In this document: positions 15,030 to 40,423 of the stretch, piece by piece | Layout: the number at the start of each line of letters is the position of its first letter | Position numbering within the stretch: the stretch's first letter is position 1 | Assembly: GCA_900230115.1 (NCBI GenBank) | Contig: LT907983.1 | Location: 4,820,774-4,884,773 of the forward strand | From: Spirosomataceae bacterium TFI 002 | GTDB lineage: Bacteria > Bacteroidota > Bacteroidia > Cytophagales > Spirosomataceae | DNA: 64,000 nucleotides | Direction of reading: 5' to 3' | Position numbers and translations under genes: made by a program | Notes under the pieces: model-generated | What the model was told of the DNA's origin: nothing | What the model saw: the letters and a program-made list of their open reading frames with translations, nothing else | Database searches by the model: none

Positions 15030-15080
15030 ACATAATTGCTGTATGTGGCATTTACATTTTCTTTATTTAATTTTTTATAT

Positions 15081-16652
15081 ATGTCGAAAGAGTCTTCTTT
15101 TAAATATATCGGTAAGGATTTATCCGCCGGTTTAGTAGTTTTTTTAGTGGCTTTGCCATTATGTTTGGGTATTTCTCTAGCCTCAGAGGCCCCATTGTTT
15201 TCAGGTATAATCGCAGGTATTGTTGGTGGTATTGTAGTAGGAGTCATAAGTGGTTCTAAACTTGGTGTCAGTGGACCAGCAGCCGGATTAGCAGTGATTG
15301 TTGCAACTGCAATTAATGATTTTGCAACTTATGAAATGTTTTTAGCTGCAGTTGTAATAGGAGGTATACTACAAATTGGGCTAGGTTTTGTGGGGGCTGG
15401 TAAAATTGCATTCTATTTCCCTTCTTCTGTAATTAAGGGCATGCTTGCAGCAATTGGTATTACCATAATTTTAAAACAAATACCTCATGCTTTTGGAGTA
15501 GATAAAGATCCAGAAGGTGACTTTGAATTCCTACAACCAGATGGAGAAAATACCATCTCTGAGTTATTTAACTTGGGTAATTACATCGGTGGTGCACTCC
15601 TCATTGGAATGGTGTGTTTGGTTTTGTTGATTTTGTGGGATCAAAAATTCATTAAAAGGAATAAGATTTTAAGCTTAATTCCAGGACCATTATTGGCTGT
15701 TGCCGTAGGAATTGGATTGAATAAATTCTTCCCAAGCGATATGAGTTTAGCTGCCTCTCACTTGGTACAATTACCTATCGCATCATCTTTGGAAGAATTT
15801 AAAGGGTTCCTTACATTTCCCGATTTTGGAGCATTTACTAACTTCAAAGTTCTTAAAGTAGGATTTTTAATTGCTATTATTGCTAGTTTGGAAACTCTTT
15901 TATGTGTGGAGGCTACAGATAGGTTAGATCCTCACAAAAATATCACACCAACCAATAGAGAATTAATTGCTCAAGGGGCTGGTAATATGGTCTCTGGTTT
16001 GATTGGAGGTATTCCAGTTACTCAGGTTATTGTAAGAAGTTCGGCAAACATACAGGCCGGTGGACGTACAAAGCTCTCAGCAATATTTCATGGAGTGTTA
16101 TTAATGACCTGTGTTATGTTTATTCCTGATTTACTAAACACTATCCCATTAGCAGCTTTGGCGGCGATATTAATAATGGTAGGTTATAAACTAGCACAAC
16201 CATCATTGTTCAAGAAGATGTATACGGAAGGTCAAGACCAATTTATACCGTTTATTGTAACTATTGTGGCTGTATTATTTACGGATCTCCTTATTGGAAT
16301 TTTGATTGGATTATTGGTAGGATTAGCATACGTTTTATTTACCAATTTCAGATCGGCAATAAAATACAATAGAGAAGGAAACCACCATATAGTGGACTTC
16401 AAGAAGGATGTGTTCTTTTACAATAGAGCTGAATTAATTCAAGTTTTTAGTAAATTGAAAAGTGGTGATAAACTAACACTTGACGGAAGAAATGTCGACT
16501 TCATGGATCATGATATCTTTTTGGCTATTGAAGAATTTGTTCAAGAAGCAGACAAGAAAAACATTGAAGTAGAAGTAAAAGAGATAAGTAGAAAGAAAAT
16601 TACTTTCAGAAAGAAGAATGAATCAAGTGTCAAACTAACGGTAAAATCTTAA
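15081..16652 (+). CDS. SulP-family anion transporter with STAS domain (probable bicarbonate uptake)
   Basis: A 523-residue inner-membrane SLC26/SulP transporter. The true start is the ATG at 15081 (MSKESSFKYIGKDLSAG); the frame could open earlier at a TTG but that adds an unlikely leader. The membrane domain shows the SulP entry motif VALPLCLGISLASEAPLFSG, a GSKLGVSGPAAGLAV segment and about a dozen hydrophobic helices. A STAS domain follows (about 430-510, with SGDKLTLDGRNVDFMDHD). The beta-carbonic anhydrase starts 10 bases downstream, which suggests bicarbonate rather than sulfate as substrate, by analogy with BicA-type transporters; this is inference. Confidence 0.9.
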   Translation: MSKESSFKYIGKDLSAGLVVFLVALPLCLGISLASEAPLFSGIIAGIVGGIVVGVISGSKLGVSGPAAGLAVIVATAINDFATYEMFLAAVVIGGILQIGLGFVGAGKIAFYFPSSVIKGMLAAIGITIILKQIPHAFGVDKDPEGDFEFLQPDGENTISELFNLGNYIGGALLIGMVCLVLLILWDQKFIKRNKILSLIPGPLLAVAVGIGLNKFFPSDMSLAASHLVQLPIASSLEEFKGFLTFPDFGAFTNFKVLKVGFLIAIIASLETLLCVEATDRLDPHKNITPTNRELIAQGAGNMVSGLIGGIPVTQVIVRSSANIQAGGRTKLSAIFHGVLLMTCVMFIPDLLNTIPLAALAAILIMVGYKLAQPSLFKKMYTEGQDQFIPFIVTIVAVLFTDLLIGILIGLLVGLAYVLFTNFRSAIKYNREGNHHIVDFKKDVFFYNRAELIQVFSKLKSGDKLTLDGRNVDFMDHDIFLAIEEFVQEADKKNIEVEVKEISRKKITFRKKNESSVKLTVKS

Positions 16653-16662
16653 ATAGAAATTT

Positions 16663-17319
16663 ATGGAATCATATAAAAAACTTTTAGCAGAAAATAAAAG
16701 GTGGGCAGAAGCACAAGCTTTGGTAGATCCAATGTTCTTCACTCAAATGGCAGCAGGTCAAAGTCCTGAGTTTTTGTGGATAGGTTGTGCAGATAGTCGT
16801 GCTCCTGCAGATAAAATCACCAATACTCAACCAGGGCAAATCTTTGTACATAGAAATGTTGCGAACCTTGTCCTTCACAATGACTTCAATATGCTAAGTG
16901 TGTTGCAATACGCTGTTGAGGTACTCAAAGTGAAGCACATTATGGTTGTGGGTCATTATGGCTGTGGTGGAGTAAAAGCTTCTATGTCAAATGATGATTT
17001 AGGACTTATCAATAAGTGGGTGCGTAACATCAAGGATGTTTACCAAAAACATAATGACGAGCTTGAAGCAATCGAAGATGAAACTGCTAAAACAAATAGA
17101 CTTTGCGAATTAAACGTGGTAGAGCAAACACGTAATTTGGTTAAAACTACAATTGTTCAAAAAGCTTGGGCAAATGGACATAAGGTTCATATACACGGAT
17201 GGATTTTGCAATTAGACTCAGGTTTAATTAAGCAAATCTTTGAAGTGGCACCTGGTGATTTATCAGTAGTAGAGCCTATTTACAGGTACAATATTACGCC
17301 AACAGAGAAAGAGAGTTAA
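16663..17319 (+). CDS. can: Beta-class carbonic anhydrase
   Basis: Interconverts CO2 and bicarbonate in the cytoplasm. The 218 residues contain all zinc-site residues of the beta class: Cys42 and the Asp44/Arg46 dyad in GCADSRAP, then His98 and Cys101 in HYGCGG. It lies 10 bases after the SulP gene on the same strand, so the pair is very probably co-transcribed and functionally linked in inorganic carbon handling. A strong bidirectional hairpin follows the gene. Confidence 0.95.
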   Translation: MESYKKLLAENKRWAEAQALVDPMFFTQMAAGQSPEFLWIGCADSRAPADKITNTQPGQIFVHRNVANLVLHNDFNMLSVLQYAVEVLKVKHIMVVGHYGCGGVKASMSNDDLGLINKWVRNIKDVYQKHNDELEAIEDETAKTNRLCELNVVEQTRNLVKTTIVQKAWANGHKVHIHGWILQLDSGLIKQIFEVAPGDLSVVEPIYRYNITPTEKES

Positions 17320-17345: not shown

Positions 17346-17378
17346 AAAAAAGAGAGGTCACATGTGGCTTCTCTTTTT
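17346..17378. terminator. Bidirectional terminator between can and the TolC gene
   Basis: An A-rich left flank and T-rich right flank (AAAAAAGAGAGG... and ...TTCTCTTTTT) enclose a stem with the inner core GTCACA/TGTGGC. The long stem with A/T tails on both sides suits convergent genes; it reaches into the TolC-family stop codon at 17377. Confidence 0.75.
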
Positions 17379-18774
17379 AGTTTATAGTATCTAAACCTGC
17401 TGCATATACTAAAGAAGCAACCGCCTTTTCGTATTTTGATTTTAACTCTTCTAGTTTAAGTTTTATTTCCAAAAGCTTGTTCTCTCTACTATTAATTAGG
17501 AAAAGGGAGCTTTCTCCAATTGAGAACTTCATTTTTTCGGCATCCAAAAGTACTTGTTGCATTTCCGCAGCTTCTCCCTGTATGCTAATAACATTTTCTA
17601 AATTCTTTGCTTGATTGTAGGCAATATAGACATCGTTTAGTATTTCTCTAGAAAGCTGTCTTCTCTCAAGTTCGTTTGATATTTGCTTGATTTTCACTTG
17701 TTGAAGTTTTCCTCGCTCTTTTCTCAGAAAAAGTGGAATTGAGAAATCAACACCAAGTTTATGGTTACTATTTAATAAACTATAGTCTCCGAAAGAGTAC
17801 TTAGGGGTATCAAGGTATCCAAAACTTAAATCTAGTTGAGGCTTAAAGGCTTCCTTTGCTAATCGTTCCTGTACCTGGATTTGCTCATACTTAAAATTGA
17901 GTTTAGTAATCTCAGGATGATTATTTTTAGCCTGTTCTACAAAAAGATTAAGCTTTTCCTCATTAAGTATAAAAGATGGGATAGAAGGCGGAATGAAGTT
18001 CTCGGGAATTTCAAGTGGTACGTCATTTTGATCCCACAAATAATTAGAAAGAATAAGAGAAGAATTACGAAAGTCAATTAAGGCATTTTGAACATCGACT
18101 TCTCGAGTTTGCAAAGTTATTTTTGCTTCTACAGAATCTATAGGGGCTTTTTCGCCAACTTGTGCTTGAGATTTAACAAATTGAAAACGATTTTTTGCGA
18201 GTTCATATGCTTCAGACTGAATCTTTAATGCCTGGTATTTTAGATACCATTCCCAATAATCTTTTGCACCAGCGAAGACTATTTTATTAACCATCTTTCG
18301 CTGTTCTGCAACAGAGATGTTTTGGTAAATTTTTGATTGTAATAGGGTGCTTCTCCTATTTTCCATCAAAAGACCTTTTCCTACTGGAACACTAAACCCC
18401 GTAAATGTTTGTAAAGCGGACAATTCTGGATTAAGTCTATCTCCAGTATTTTGTTCTCTTTCTACTTTAAAGTCTATTCCTGCCCATATAGGCACTTTTA
18501 ATTGCGAAATCCAATGATTGTAGTAATCTTGACCACCTATCGATTTTCGATCAAAGTTAGATTCCAATTTTGGGTCAAATCCACCTCTTGCCATTAATAG
18601 ATCGGCCTGAGCATAATCTACTTCAAGCCCAGCCATTTTCACCACAGGGTGGTTTTTGATTAGCAGCGTATAAAAGTCTATATAGCTTAATAACGTCGTA
18701 TCAGCTACTTGTGCATTGGTGCTTATTGAAGTAAATGCCACCAAAACCCATATATATATTAGCCTTTTTGTCAT
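17377..18774 (-). CDS. TolC-family outer-membrane efflux protein
   Basis: A 465-residue outer-membrane channel component with a signal peptide (residues 1-21, ending TNAQ) and the long alternating helices and internal duplication of the OEP/TolC family, for example YEQIQVQERLAKEAFKPQLDLSFG near residue 300. It is the last gene of a three-gene operon with the adaptor and ABC genes; its start overlaps the adaptor stop by 4 bases. Together they would form a tripartite type I-style exporter or efflux complex. Confidence 0.9.
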   Translation of the reverse strand: MTKRLIYIWVLVAFTSISTNAQVADTTLLSYIDFYTLLIKNHPVVKMAGLEVDYAQADLLMARGGFDPKLESNFDRKSIGGQDYYNHWISQLKVPIWAGIDFKVEREQNTGDRLNPELSALQTFTGFSVPVGKGLLMENRRSTLLQSKIYQNISVAEQRKMVNKIVFAGAKDYWEWYLKYQALKIQSEAYELAKNRFQFVKSQAQVGEKAPIDSVEAKITLQTREVDVQNALIDFRNSSLILSNYLWDQNDVPLEIPENFIPPSIPSFILNEEKLNLFVEQAKNNHPEITKLNFKYEQIQVQERLAKEAFKPQLDLSFGYLDTPKYSFGDYSLLNSNHKLGVDFSIPLFLRKERGKLQQVKIKQISNELERRQLSREILNDVYIAYNQAKNLENVISIQGEAAEMQQVLLDAEKMKFSIGESSLFLINSRENKLLEIKLKLEELKSKYEKAVASLVYAAGLDTIN

Positions 18775-20135
18775 TTTTTTGCACTCTCATTATTGGTTTC
18801 ATCACCTTCTGGCTTATTCTTCAAGCTAGGAGGAAAAGCATTCAGTTGACGCCAAATCTCATACCACACAGGAACATTGTCCAGCATAACCCACCCATAT
18901 ACACCCGAACCGATCCTTAATTGCTCAGGCCATGGTTCGTCGTCTTCTTTTGGCGTCACAAGTAGCCTGTATTCTCCATTCTTGCTATCTACTAGGTCAA
19001 TGACTGAAACTGTTCCACCAAATGTACCCACGGAAACATTAGGCCAACCAGAAAACTGAATTGCAGGCCATCCTTCAAATTGTATCCTTACTTCTCTGTT
19101 TTTTTGAATCAAAGGAACATCCATGGCACTGATATAGAGTTCCACCGCAAGGTTTGGTCGATCTGGTTGTAAAGTACAAATAGCTTCGCCTTGCTTGATT
19201 GTTTCGCCTATTCCAGCCTTTAAAGCTTTGACAACTACACCAGTTTGAGGAGCTCTAACCACATAATAGCCTTGGCGTGTGTCTACACTTGCTCTTTTGT
19301 TTACAAGTTTAGAAAGCTCAGATTGCCCATCGGCGATAGCGGCCAATGCCGAACTATAATCTGATCTAGCTTTAGCAATTTTCTCATTATATTCCGCCGA
19401 TACTGCGTTTAAAGAAATAATGGCACTTAGAAGGCCCTGTTTTGAGATTTCTAGTTTGTTTTGAGTTGAAACTACTTTTGCAGAAACTTCTTGTTGTTTC
19501 ATTTCTCGGCTTTCCAAACTAATTAACGACAAGATCCCTTGATCATATTGCTGTTTTCCTCTTAGGTATCTTTCATTTGCAATATTGTATTGAATACGCT
19601 CATTCACCAGGTCAGTACTATCCGAAATTACCTTTGCTCTACTTTGTGCTATATAGTTTTCTGCTTTCCTCAAACTGAATTTTCTATTTTCTTCTAGAGC
19701 GTTCATTTGGTTCTGAAGAGCTTGTACTTTTTGCCTGTAGCTATCTATTGCTTGATCTTTTGCCGAAATTTGCTCGTCAATTCGGAGCATTATATTAGGG
19801 TCAAAATACTCATCCTTAATTTCACTTATTAGAAGTAGGGTATCTCCTTTGTTAACCTTTTGACCTTCTTTAATTCTCCACTCCTTGATACTGCCGTCAA
19901 TAAAGTTTTGAACTGTTTGTGGCCTGTCGGAAGGCGACAATGCGGTTAAGCCTCCTTTGCCTGTTACATTTTGTTGCCAAGGCAAAAAGAGAACAAGGAT
20001 AAATACCATAAGTATACCTAGGAGCCATCGCATTAATCTTAGAATAGTGCGAGGTGTTCCTAATGTGGAAAGGATATAAATTTCGTAGTCCTTTTCCAGG
20101 GCGTCGTTAATTCGTTGTTTAGATATATTCAGCAT
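18771..20135 (-). CDS. HlyD-family membrane fusion (adaptor) protein
   Basis: A 454-residue periplasmic adaptor. It has a cytoplasmic N-terminus of about 35 residues, one membrane helix (about 36-52, LLGILMVFILVLFLP), a biotinyl/lipoyl half-motif (VQNFIDGSIKEWRIKEGQKV), a long coiled-coil hairpin (about 115-280), a second lipoyl half (YYVVRAPQTGVVVKAL) and a C-terminal beta-barrel. This is the layout of adaptors for type I secretion ABC proteins. It sits between the ABC and TolC genes, 8 bases after the former. Confidence 0.9.
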   Translation of the reverse strand: MLNISKQRINDALEKDYEIYILSTLGTPRTILRLMRWLLGILMVFILVLFLPWQQNVTGKGGLTALSPSDRPQTVQNFIDGSIKEWRIKEGQKVNKGDTLLLISEIKDEYFDPNIMLRIDEQISAKDQAIDSYRQKVQALQNQMNALEENRKFSLRKAENYIAQSRAKVISDSTDLVNERIQYNIANERYLRGKQQYDQGILSLISLESREMKQQEVSAKVVSTQNKLEISKQGLLSAIISLNAVSAEYNEKIAKARSDYSSALAAIADGQSELSKLVNKRASVDTRQGYYVVRAPQTGVVVKALKAGIGETIKQGEAICTLQPDRPNLAVELYISAMDVPLIQKNREVRIQFEGWPAIQFSGWPNVSVGTFGGTVSVIDLVDSKNGEYRLLVTPKEDDEPWPEQLRIGSGVYGWVMLDNVPVWYEIWRQLNAFPPSLKNKPEGDETNNESAKK

Positions 20136-20143
20136 TTGAAATC

Positions 20144-22288
20144 TTAATCAATACAGCGTTTAAGTCCTTCCTCATTAATGAGCGATTCGTATGTTCCATC
20201 AAGTGAAACTCTTCCTTCATCCAATACAACCAATCGGTCACAGGCTTTCATGACTTGTGGGTCATTGGAAACGGTAATAAATGTCCATGGTTGAGATTTG
20301 TCTATGAGGAATTTTAAAATGCTCCTAAGGTCTTGCTTGTCAATGTGTTCATAGCAATTACTCAGCATGAGCAGTTTAGGTTTATTTACAATACAGCGGG
20401 CTAAAGTTACTTTGGTAGAAAAACTTTGTGAAAAACGTCTCCCACCTGAAATCATTTGAGTACTTAGACCTTCTTTTAGTCTTCCAATTGCCTCTTCCAT
20501 GTTCAGGTTTTTCATCACCCAATAAACATCTTTGATTTGAACTTTTCGACGGCTCATAGTAATGTTTTCCAGCAATGTTCCATCAAATATTCCATCGGCA
20601 GAAACATTTCTTTCAATAACCTCATGAAGATGCCCTTGCTCAATATCCCTTAATGAAACTCCATTAAAGTTGATGTTGCCATTATAGCTCGTGAGAATTC
20701 CTGCAAGTACATTTAGTAATGTTTCTTTACCCGACCCATTGGAACCGGTTATACATACACTTTCTCCGCTTTTGATGTGAAGGTCGCAATCTTTTAATGT
20801 TGGCGAATAATTATCTTCAAATACATAGGTGAGTTTTTGAACTTTAACTTCAATCGCTTTGTCGCTGAAATTGAAATGTTTTACTTTCCCATTCGTGCTC
20901 TCTAATGGTAAATCGGATACTTGTCCTAATTTATCCAATGCTGTTAGAAGATCAAAAACTGAATCGAGAGATAATAAGATTTTTTCTACAGAACCAACCA
21001 CCAAGACCACAACAATTTCACTGGCAACAAATTGACCTATTGTTATTTGTCTGTTTATTACTAAGTAAGTACCTACAATAAGTAAACCACCAGTTACCAG
21101 TGCTTTAAAGAATACGGCATTGTAAAAAAGAACCAATAAGTAATCGAAATACTTTTTACGGTACTTAAGGTAACCATTTAGTAGCATCTCCATTCTTTGC
21201 AATGGAAGGGTTGTATTTCCTGCCACTTTAAAGGTGTAAGACGTTCGGGCCAAATCTTGAAGCCATTGTGCAATTTTGTATTTGTACTTCGATTTTACAA
21301 TGTTGGAATCGAGGGTTCTTGAGCCGTAAATTCGAGTTACTCCCAATACCAGAATAATGGTGAGTAATCCAAAAATAATAAATAATGGGTGATAAGCAGT
21401 TAATAATAAAAGACCAAAAATTATTTGAATCAAAGCTGCTGTAATATCGATCAAAAGCTTTGGAAGTGTTTTTTGGACAGTGGTAATGTCGAAAAAACGA
21501 TTCATCAATTCGGGAGGATAATACTTTAAAAGTGCCTCAGCTTTAATTCGTGGAATTCTAAAGGCGTAGTCAAATGCAGCTTTGGAAAAAAGACGTTCAA
21601 CTAAATATTCTACTAAGGACAATTGCATGACCTGCATCACCCCTGATACAATTAATGCGAAAAACACTAAACCAATGAGAATATAAATAGAGCTAAAGAC
21701 TAGACCTCCTTGCACGAGGCCAATGATCGCTTGAATTCCTAAAGGTAAAACTAGGCTAATGGCTCCTATAAGTAATGCGTAAATGTAGATTGCGATGATA
21801 TCCTTTCGCTCAACTTTGAGCATTCGAACCAGCCTTTGAAAAGGTCTAAGCACCTCGTTTTGTTCCTCTTCTCGAGACTCTTCGGATACACTTTGAACAG
21901 GGAAAGCTGTCAGAATTTTAACCGTATCACCAAATAATAATGGCTCAGGGTTTTTCTCTTTAACCAATCCATTGACTTGAACCAAATAAGTGAAGTCTTG
22001 CTGGGGTTTAAACGTACGACCATCTATTACAGGAACAATATCACTTTCAACTTGCGTAAAGTAGATAATTGGGAAATCATTGTTCTTGATACTATACTCA
22101 AGATGTTCTTTGGTTACGTTTTTCTCAATGATGAGCAAGCCCATCTTTTCTGCTTCTGATTGGAGGGTTTGAATGAAGTCTCCAATGTCATACGATATTT
22201 CCTCCAAGTTGTGTATGCTTGGAGCATATGTCATGTCAAATGTAGTGGCTAATTGGCTTAAAACAGTTTTTATCTGTTGTTGCTGCAT
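20144..22288 (-). CDS. Type I ABC exporter protein with a degenerate nucleotide-binding domain
   Basis: A 714-residue ABC exporter: N-terminal cytoplasmic region of about 150 residues (possibly a C39-like pseudo-peptidase, not proven), six membrane helices (about 160-440) and a C-terminal nucleotide-binding domain. That domain is altered at most catalytic positions: Walker A reads GSNGSGKET (515-523, Glu522 where Ser/Thr should bind magnesium), the Q-loop position is Ala564, Walker B ends LLMLSN (Ser643, Asn644 in place of Asp-Glu), and the H-loop has Asn675 in TVSND. SGGR of the signature is kept. The frame is intact throughout, so this is not a decayed gene. It leads the HlyD/TolC operon. 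ATP hydrolysis looks unlikely; it may act with another ABC subunit or have a non-canonical role. Confidence 0.85.
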   Translation of the reverse strand: MQQQQIKTVLSQLATTFDMTYAPSIHNLEEISYDIGDFIQTLQSEAEKMGLLIIEKNVTKEHLEYSIKNNDFPIIYFTQVESDIVPVIDGRTFKPQQDFTYLVQVNGLVKEKNPEPLLFGDTVKILTAFPVQSVSEESREEEQNEVLRPFQRLVRMLKVERKDIIAIYIYALLIGAISLVLPLGIQAIIGLVQGGLVFSSIYILIGLVFFALIVSGVMQVMQLSLVEYLVERLFSKAAFDYAFRIPRIKAEALLKYYPPELMNRFFDITTVQKTLPKLLIDITAALIQIIFGLLLLTAYHPLFIIFGLLTIILVLGVTRIYGSRTLDSNIVKSKYKYKIAQWLQDLARTSYTFKVAGNTTLPLQRMEMLLNGYLKYRKKYFDYLLVLFYNAVFFKALVTGGLLIVGTYLVINRQITIGQFVASEIVVVLVVGSVEKILLSLDSVFDLLTALDKLGQVSDLPLESTNGKVKHFNFSDKAIEVKVQKLTYVFEDNYSPTLKDCDLHIKSGESVCITGSNGSGKETLLNVLAGILTSYNGNINFNGVSLRDIEQGHLHEVIERNVSADGIFDGTLLENITMSRRKVQIKDVYWVMKNLNMEEAIGRLKEGLSTQMISGGRRFSQSFSTKVTLARCIVNKPKLLMLSNCYEHIDKQDLRSILKFLIDKSQPWTFITVSNDPQVMKACDRLVVLDEGRVSLDGTYESLINEEGLKRCID

Positions 22289-22496: not shown

Positions 22497-22883
22497 CTAC
22501 ATATCCCAAGTACCTTCCGGCGAAAAAATCAAATCTGTTTCAATGTCAAGGTCATATAAGTATTGATATGTACGAGTTTCTTTATGGCAAAATGGCTCCA
22601 TTAATCGAAGCATATTTTCAAAACTTTCGTAAGTCATATCGCAAAAGAAATTAGTGCCGTCATTGGTTCTAAGTCCTTCGTCTTCAGGGAATATACGGAA
22701 TTTAAGATTGATTCCATTTCTATCTATAAATAGAACTTCGGATAAATCTAAAACCGCCCTGTTTTCAATAATGGTTGTTTTAAAAACATCATAAAATGCG
22801 GCAGCTTGAGACTGGTTAAAATTATAAATTCTAACGAGGTGTTCTCCGTAACTGTTAATATTTGAAAGGTAATCGAGTGTCAT
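22497..22883 (-). CDS. Unrecognised 128-residue cytoplasmic protein
   Basis: No family recognised. There is no signal peptide or membrane segment. The protein is acidic, with the phrases NRAVLDLSEVLFIDRNGINL and FPEDEGLRTNDGTNFFCDM, then a Tyr/Asp-rich C-terminus ending GTWDM. It has its own TAnnTTTG box 19 bases upstream and is separated from the ABC exporter operon by about 210 bases, so it is probably monocistronic. The intact reading frame and promoter support a real gene. Confidence 0.65.
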   Translation of the reverse strand: MTLDYLSNINSYGEHLVRIYNFNQSQAAAFYDVFKTTIIENRAVLDLSEVLFIDRNGINLKFRIFPEDEGLRTNDGTNFFCDMTYESFENMLRLMEPFCHKETRTYQYLYDLDIETDLIFSPEGTWDM

Positions 22884-38659: not shown

Positions 38660-40423
38660 TTATGCCATGGCAGCAGCGTATTGAATTTGATACAATTCAT
38701 TATAGAAACCACCTTTTGCAAGTAACTCATTATGATTTCCGCTTTCTACGATTTCACCTTTATCTATAACGATGATTCTGTCAGCTTTTTGAATAGTACT
38801 AAGTCTGTGTGCTATCACAATAGCTGTACGCCCTTTCATAAGGACTTCGATTGCATTTTGAATTAACTCTTCAGACTCAGTGTCGATAGATGAAGTCGCT
38901 TCGTCTAGCACAATGATACTAGGATTTTGTACCATAGCCCTCACAAAAGAAATCAACTGTCGCTGGCCTACAGATAGCGTGGCACCACGTTCCATTACAT
39001 TATAGTCGTAGTTGCCAGGTAACTGCATGATAAAGTCGTGTACGCCTACAAGCTTGGCCGCATTCACAATTTGTTCATCGCCTATATTTTGGTCCCCTAG
39101 GGTAATGTTGTTTCTAATGGTATCTGAGAAAAGGAAGACATCTTGCAAGACCATTCCAATACTTTGTCTTAAATGAGACAGATCGTAATTGTCAATGTTC
39201 ACTCCGTCAATCTCAATCTTACCTTCATTGATATCGTAAAACCTTGTTAAAAGATTTATGATTGAGCTTTTCCCTGCTCCTGTAGCTCCTACAAATGCCA
39301 CAGTTTCACCAAACTTAGCTTCGAAGCTGATGTTTTTCAAAACATAGTTCTCGTCAATGTAGGCAAACTTTACGTTGGTAAATTTTACATTACCTTCAAT
39401 AGGAGTAGTAATTGTACCATTGTCAACTAAATAATCCTCACTATCCAATAGTTTAATAATCCTATCGGTACTTACGATTCCCATTTGTAGTGTATTTATT
39501 CTATCGGCCAGCATTCTTATTGGTCTAAAAAACTGATTGATAAACATGATAAATGCCGTTATGGTACCAAACTCCACAGAAGCGTCGTTTAGCATCGCTC
39601 GGGCACCATACCACACGATTAGCCCAACTCCTAAAGCAGAAATAACTTCAACTACTGGGTAGTATATGGAGTAATAAAGTACCGAACGTATGTTTGCGTC
39701 GCGGTGATCCTTATTTATCTTCACAAACTTGTTGTATTCTACTTTTTCTGAATTGAAGATTTGGACAAGGTTCATACCGGTGATATGTTCCTGAACAAAT
39801 GTATTAAGGTTAGAAACGGCATTTCTAACTTCATTGAATGATTTTTTCACCTTTTCCTTAAAGACATAGGTGCTAATAAGCATGAAAGGAATTGTACATA
39901 GGCTTATCAAAGCCAATTTCCAATTGAGCCACATCATAACTCCAAAAATTAGTACTAATTGAAGGATATCTCCTACAATAGCCGCCATACCAGAACTGAA
40001 CACCTCAGAAAGAGTCTCGATATCAGAAATGGTACGAGTAACTAATCTGCCTATCGGGGTTTGGTCAAAAAACTTCAGCTTCAGTCCAAGGATTTTATCA
40101 TACAATTGGACTCTTATATTTTTGATGATATTTTGGCCTAGCCATCCAGCTAAATAGGTGTTGAGAAAGGCTAAAATAGATGAGAAGAAAAGTAAAGCCA
40201 CCATGGCAATAAACATATTGCGAGTGCCTATCCAATCTCCTTCACTAATAGGCCCATCAATCGTATATTTGATTAATACGGGTAATGCAGGTGAAAGTGC
40301 AGCTCCAAGTATTATAACCAAAATTAGGATTCCAAACCTTAATTTGAATGGCTTAATAAAGGAAATAAGTCTGATCAGGACTTTTTTGTCAAAGATTTTA
40401 CCGCTTAGATTTTCTTCTTGCAA
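38660..40423 (-). CDS. ABC exporter (MsbA/lipid or multidrug type half-transporter)
   Basis: A 587-residue half-transporter with six membrane helices (about 25-310) and an intact nucleotide-binding domain: Walker A GATGAGKSS, Q-loop VLQDVFLF, signature LSVGQRQL (Val for Gly at the second position after Ser), Walker B IIVLDEATS, and H-loop IAHRLST. It probably works as a homodimer on lipids or hydrophobic compounds. The start appears to be the TTG at 40423: no ATG exists between the upstream in-frame stop and the first membrane helix. It is the last gene of the run that starts at 44387. Confidence 0.9.
   Translation of the reverse strand: MQEENLSGKIFDKKVLIRLISFIKPFKLRFGILILVIILGAALSPALPVLIKYTIDGPISEGDWIGTRNMFIAMVALLFFSSILAFLNTYLAGWLGQNIIKNIRVQLYDKILGLKLKFFDQTPIGRLVTRTISDIETLSEVFSSGMAAIVGDILQLVLIFGVMMWLNWKLALISLCTIPFMLISTYVFKEKVKKSFNEVRNAVSNLNTFVQEHITGMNLVQIFNSEKVEYNKFVKINKDHRDANIRSVLYYSIYYPVVEVISALGVGLIVWYGARAMLNDASVEFGTITAFIMFINQFFRPIRMLADRINTLQMGIVSTDRIIKLLDSEDYLVDNGTITTPIEGNVKFTNVKFAYIDENYVLKNISFEAKFGETVAFVGATGAGKSSIINLLTRFYDINEGKIEIDGVNIDNYDLSHLRQSIGMVLQDVFLFSDTIRNNITLGDQNIGDEQIVNAAKLVGVHDFIMQLPGNYDYNVMERGATLSVGQRQLISFVRAMVQNPSIIVLDEATSSIDTESEELIQNAIEVLMKGRTAIVIAHRLSTIQKADRIIVIDKGEIVESGNHNELLAKGGFYNELYQIQYAAAMA

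Follow-up and report, generated by a model that had tools for sequence, protein, structure and literature searches.

What drives an exporter of the ABC type whose ATPase domain (NBD) has lost the residues expected to hydrolyse ATP, and which sits in one operon with HlyD and TolC genes? This question is raised by a gene of Spirosomataceae bacterium TFI 002 found at positions 20144–22288 (reverse strand) of the window, that is, the whole stretch of 64,000 nucleotides that was analysed.

Gene, operon and domain organization

The frame of 714 aa has zero internal stops and encodes an ABC-exporter-derived inner-membrane protein, apparently ATPase-dead. It is directly followed, on the same strand, by a gene for an HlyD-family periplasmic adaptor (18771–20135, 454 aa; PF13437 and TIGR01843) and then by one for a TolC-family outer-membrane channel (17377–18774, 465 aa; PF02321 and TIGR01844), so that the intact frame and the HlyD/TolC operon of the preliminary description are both borne out. 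Matches to PF00664 (ABC_membrane, 36.8 bits, cut-off 28) and PF00005 (ABC_tran, 66.2 bits, cut-off 25) both exceed their cut-offs, and by these domain matches the protein is, in descent, a member of the ABC exporter superfamily. An operon shared with HlyD and TolC is what is found in type I secretion systems, and the best score against the NCBIfam T1SS and bacteriocin ABC models is below threshold (176 bits vs a cut-off of 853).

The protein starts with an N-terminal domain (residues 1–145, 21854–22288), continues with a transmembrane domain (TMD; residues 147–467, 20888–21850), delimited by alignment, PF00664 and the tree and constituting the sole part retained in the TMD-only relatives described below, and ends with a degenerate NBD (residues 476–714, 20147–20863), recognized by PF00005 (66 bits), the motif tally and the dN/dS of its clade. 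All three lie on the reverse strand. A full-length AF2 model built on a 4-sequence alignment reached pLDDT 56 and pTM 0.34 and was left unused for residue geometry.

The AF2 model of residues 1–145 reached pLDDT 83.7 and pTM 0.79, and its best 17 structural matches were all C39 peptidase or C39-like domains (PCAT1, HlyB, ComA etc.), with Z of 8.5–9.9 over 106–118 residues. Foldseek by itself returned weak E-values (best 0.027), and a profile comparison against a single C39 domain gave no match; the C39 assignment is therefore a purely structural one. No Pfam family was found for this domain. Residues 1–145 contain no cysteine, which points to a pseudo-peptidase, HlyB offering a parallel with its C39-like domain. 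The modelled fold and the missing cysteine thus support a C39-like pseudo-peptidase, as had been supposed from the sequence at first.

A small gene upstream (22497–22883) was considered as a part of the system and rejected, because related loci have no counterpart of it. On the other side, a SulP-like permease gene lies beside a carbonic-anhydrase-like gene at 15036–17319, both recognized by eye and convergent with the operon.

Loss of catalytic residues from the ATPase domain

Residues of the NBD were assigned by a residue-by-residue alignment against ABCB1 and, for Walker A, the signature, Walker B and the H-loop, also by the motif tally; all positions are given on the reverse strand. In Walker A (residues 515–523, GSNGSGKET, 20720–20746) the P-loop lysine K521 is retained and Glu522 takes the place of Ser/Thr. 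Walker B (residues 639–644, LLMLSN, 20357–20374) has Ser643-Asn644 for Asp-Glu, and the histidine of the H-loop is replaced by N675 (20264–20266). These three replacements are as the preliminary description had them. For the Q-loop (20597–20602) its claim holds in part: glutamine is indeed lost, yet the position given for it, Ala564, corresponds to the Gln of ABCB1 only under another placing of a one-residue indel, the ungapped alignment giving S563. Its statement that the SGG of the signature is retained has to be corrected, as S614-G615-G616 (20441–20449) falls on the “ERG” position of ABCB1 and LSGGQ falls on FSQSF (residues 619–623, 20420–20434); therefore, the signature of the window protein is lost as well. 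The aromatic residue of the A-loop, Y488, is retained.

Compared with ATP-hydrolysing exporters, the protein thus lacks the Walker A Ser/Thr, the Walker B Asp-Glu pair, LSGGQ and the H-loop His, and a homodimer devoid of the Walker B acids, the signature and the histidine would not be expected to hydrolyse ATP. Judged from these residues, ATP hydrolysis has very probably been lost, and the use of ATP, with which type I systems secrete unfolded proteins, is contradicted. A canonical ABC exporter of 587 aa with intact catalytic motifs is encoded at 38660–40423 (reverse strand) and served as a control.

Relatives with degenerate and missing ATPase domains

A relative at E <= 1e-60 was found in 139 of 150 genomes of the same family. 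In the sample of the phylum Bacteroidota, 77 of 296 genomes gave a match (about a quarter). The nearest named relative, among the three named in a contig scan, belongs to a Spirosomataceae MAG and has 60% identity. Of the 82 loci with enough flanking sequence, 76 have HlyD and TolC immediately downstream.

Scoring six catalytic positions per NBD, we found the ATPase domain in four states. Distant relatives in other Bacteroidota classes have all six positions in 12 of 17 cases, four of these 12 with an almost normal LSTGQ/E signature. A second state, “type II”, comprises proteins of about 540–580 aa without the N-terminal domain, in which the P-loop is mostly intact, Walker B usually reads E-D or E-E, and the signature and the histidine are gone; in one such relative (L139:5614-7272) Walker A is absent (no GxxGxGK), with an NBD-sized region still there. 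The window's own clade, mostly of 705–750 aa and with the N-terminal domain, keeps the P-loop lysine in 37/37 members. Its Walker A Ser/Thr position is occupied by E, N, H or D in 34/37 (E in 23) and by Ser/Thr in only 3, the Walker B Asp is found in 1/37, the Walker B Glu in 0/37 and the H-loop His in 5/37; the Gly of the signature is also lost, leaving 1–2 of the six scored positions. The relatives sampled in the window's class nearly all lack most catalytic residues. The comparison with orthologues, which had been proposed as a check, thus returned none that keeps all canonical residues within the window's family, and most of them are kept only by distant relatives of other classes.

In the fourth state the NBD is missing. 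These TMD-only proteins (332–385 aa) end at the linker after TM6 and are encoded by 51 genes, spread over 49 of the 139 family genomes with a relative. The start of the HlyD frame lies between roughly 30 bp ahead of the TMD stop codon and roughly 120 bp beyond it, so that no NBD is hidden behind these genes. A dimer of such proteins has no means of hydrolysing ATP. One further relative (L050:7343-9525) has its TMD (498 aa) and a degenerate NBD (236 aa) in two overlapping frames, which could reflect a frameshift or else a naturally split gene at an intermediate step of NBD loss. In some genomes of one genus (g33) type II and TMD-only forms coexist, every one accompanied by a separate HlyD and TolC, and one genome of this genus, G063, carries three operons (L047, L048 and L059).

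In the TMD tree all TMD-only proteins fall into a single clade (SH-aLRT 100), which lies within a group (support 98) that also holds the window protein and the degenerate-NBD proteins closest to it. This was a quickly built tree whose deep root is uncertain because of a long outgroup branch, and the nesting of the TMD-only clade is independent of the root. The clade has kept HlyD and TolC. A single nested clade implies that the ATPase domain was lost once, and most likely it was already dead in the ancestor of this clade. TMD-only genes of two other taxonomic families (f3 and f4) fall inside the same clade, which suggests that they were transferred there laterally.

Could all this be the trace of a decaying pseudogene or of a sequencing artefact? 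The simultaneous absence of many catalytic residues might recall one. However, intact frames occur in more than 100 genomes, the operon is conserved and dN/dS is low. Between close relatives, where some dS values are near saturation and the figures consequently rough, dN/dS was 0.004–0.046 for TMD-only genes and 0.018–0.025 for the TMD of NBD-bearing forms. The NBD gave 0.017–0.068 in its degenerate form in the window's clade and 0.08 in a single type II case, and the N-terminal domain gave 0.04–0.31. TMD-only genes are under strong purifying selection, the degenerate NBD is under purifying selection too, and no dN/dS value is pseudogene-like; we therefore rejected the artefact or pseudogene, which is exceedingly improbable.

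A degenerate NBD under purifying selection could also be one that still hydrolyses ATP by an unusual chemistry, for instance with the Walker A Glu522 or with the Asp that many relatives have at the Walker B Glu position. The P-loop lysine kept in 37/37 and the conserved pattern of replacements would agree with this. Yet the window protein and its nearest kin have no acidic residue of the Walker B pair, no signature and no histidine, and a sister clade is maintained without any NBD, which makes such chemistry very unlikely.

Search for a replacement ATPase and conserved membrane residues

Another way to retain ATP as the energy source would be to pair the degenerate subunit in trans, either with an active ABC protein encoded at another locus or with an ATPase domain on its own, giving an asymmetric transporter. 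Asymmetric ABC exporters are common, and the family has what such a pairing would use: the coupling-helix region (residues 249–272, 21473–21544) has a PPELMNRFFD..QK pattern that is nearly invariant even without an NBD. In ordinary exporters PPELMNRFFD is the motif in contact with the NBD, and its conservation in TMD-only members leaves room for an ATPase acting in trans. Against this stand the results of the search for a partner. In the window's own genome no close TMD paralogue was found (the next match had E = 0.006) and a partner paralogue was rejected; in the operons of the family no other ABC gene was found; and in 18 TMD-only genomes the search for a relocated NBD matched only full-size exporters (best 4e-42), while native NBDs used as positive control scored 1e-91 to 1e-120, so that an NBD moved elsewhere was rejected too. 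Pairing with another ABC subunit, put forward when the locus was first described, is therefore disfavoured and seems to us distinctly unlikely; any such partner would probably be a distant, unrelated one.

In or near the membrane helices, the family alignment points to charged residues (all on the reverse strand). E227 in TM2 (21608–21610) is Glu in all degenerate and NBD-less members, with Asp or Glu among the distant relatives. E424 in TM6 (21017–21019) is acidic (Glu or Asp) throughout the degenerate and the NBD-less group, and K436, also in TM6 (20981–20983), is conserved at 100% in these two groups. Two canonical exporters encoded in the window's own genome lack the three residues. In the distant, apparently ATPase-competent relatives, acidic residues also occupy the positions of E227 and E424; thus, the two residues did not arise with the loss of the NBD and are candidates only. 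Q288 had been considered as a family-specific intramembrane residue linked to NBD loss and was dropped because the canonical controls carry N or Q at the same position.

Possible energy source and comparison with known systems

The mechanism that we propose, to which we give about an even chance, is that of a tripartite trans-envelope exporter in which an ABC-derived inner-membrane dimer, its ATPase dead, would act with the HlyD adaptor and the TolC channel on an ion or proton gradient, in the manner of SbmA. The inner-membrane protein probably descends from a PCAT/HlyB-like type I exporter and has very probably lost ATP hydrolysis since. The TMD homodimer would still alternate its access, powered by the ion or proton gradient, and conserved acidic residues, for example E227 and E424, might mediate the coupling as in SbmA. 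In the forms that retain it, the pseudo-NBD may have a structural role or sense nucleotides, given that its P-loop lysine is invariant. For the Bacteroidota family as a whole, the view that an ABC-type TMD dimer has turned gradient-driven, with near-intact, dead and absent ATPase stages all extant, is a tentative one that we hold at slightly less than even chances.

Precedents for such a mode exist. SbmA, an ABC-type TMD driven by protons, has been proposed to derive from full ABC transporters through loss of the NBD, and its coupling helices are lost as well (PMC13316013). The membrane domain of LmrA without its NBD was reported to be a secondary-active translocator (PMC6155054). Together they show that a gradient-driven mode is possible for an ABC-type TMD. 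Alternatively, the protein could be a passive or ligand-gated conduit or a platform for HlyD-TolC assembly, with transport being downhill or driven elsewhere. The sequence holds no sign of an energy source and TolC and HlyD are retained, as a conduit or platform would allow; nonetheless, the TMD is strongly conserved, including the alternating-access helices, and wherever ABC-type TMDs lack working NBDs, the near precedents are transporters, so that we consider this reading unlikely. A different energy source, raised at the outset, and a passive conduit, close to the channel or scaffold raised there, are still standing, and the clade that has completely lost the NBD has strengthened them.

The gradient-driven reading invites a comparison with SbmA/BacA (SLiPT), which share with our family an ABC-exporter-type TMD active without an NBD, a proposed ABC descent and conserved acidic residues (PMC13316013). 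SbmA differs in being an importer with extra TM0 helices and no HlyD/TolC in its locus. Whereas SbmA has no NBD, the window protein keeps a degenerate one, its absence being limited to the TMD-only relatives; and whereas the coupling helices of SbmA are lost, PPELMNRFFD and neighbouring residues are conserved in the window's family, in which degenerate-NBD intermediates are extant. With HlyB/HlyD/TolC the family shares the three-gene plan, a C39-like domain without catalytic cysteine and the ABC folds of TMD and NBD, but HlyB hydrolyses ATP and the NBD of our family is predicted to be ATPase-dead or is absent. Among PCATs, ComA has the closest TMD of solved structure (E 1e-9) and the C39 fold in common; the window protein, unlike it, has neither the peptidase cysteine nor a working NBD. 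EmrAB-TolC unites a gradient-powered inner-membrane transporter with an HlyD-type adaptor and TolC, as proposed here, and TetR-type genes flank many relatives of the window protein; its inner-membrane part, EmrB, is however an MFS protein and not an ABC-type TMD. As for LmrA, the NBD-less form (PMC6155054) is a laboratory truncation rather than a natural gene, and it is not tripartite. Taken together, the system is a variant of the HlyD/TolC tripartite exporter; it is possibly SbmA-like in its working but does not belong to the SbmA family.

In a first set of loci, a divergent TetR-type gene adjoined the operon or lay one gene off in 12 of 19 TMD-only and 17 of 17 type II loci; it was absent beside the window gene and beside the other loci of its clade that were examined. 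These neighbours hint at small-molecule substrates for the type II and TMD-only forms.

In the open-access literature we found no description of a family that combines an ATPase-dead or absent NBD with HlyD/TolC. Where genes of this kind are annotated in plasmid records, they are labelled “ABC transporter ATP-binding protein”, a label that would mislead. Tripartite pumps are described as ABC-, RND- or MFS-powered (PMC8277102). If an ABC-type TMD works in a tripartite pump without its ATPase, this would be a further kind of engine. SbmA suggests that a conversion from ABC to gradient-driven transport is possible, and since the intermediates survive in the window's family, the order of the steps and the moment at which energy coupling changed become testable.
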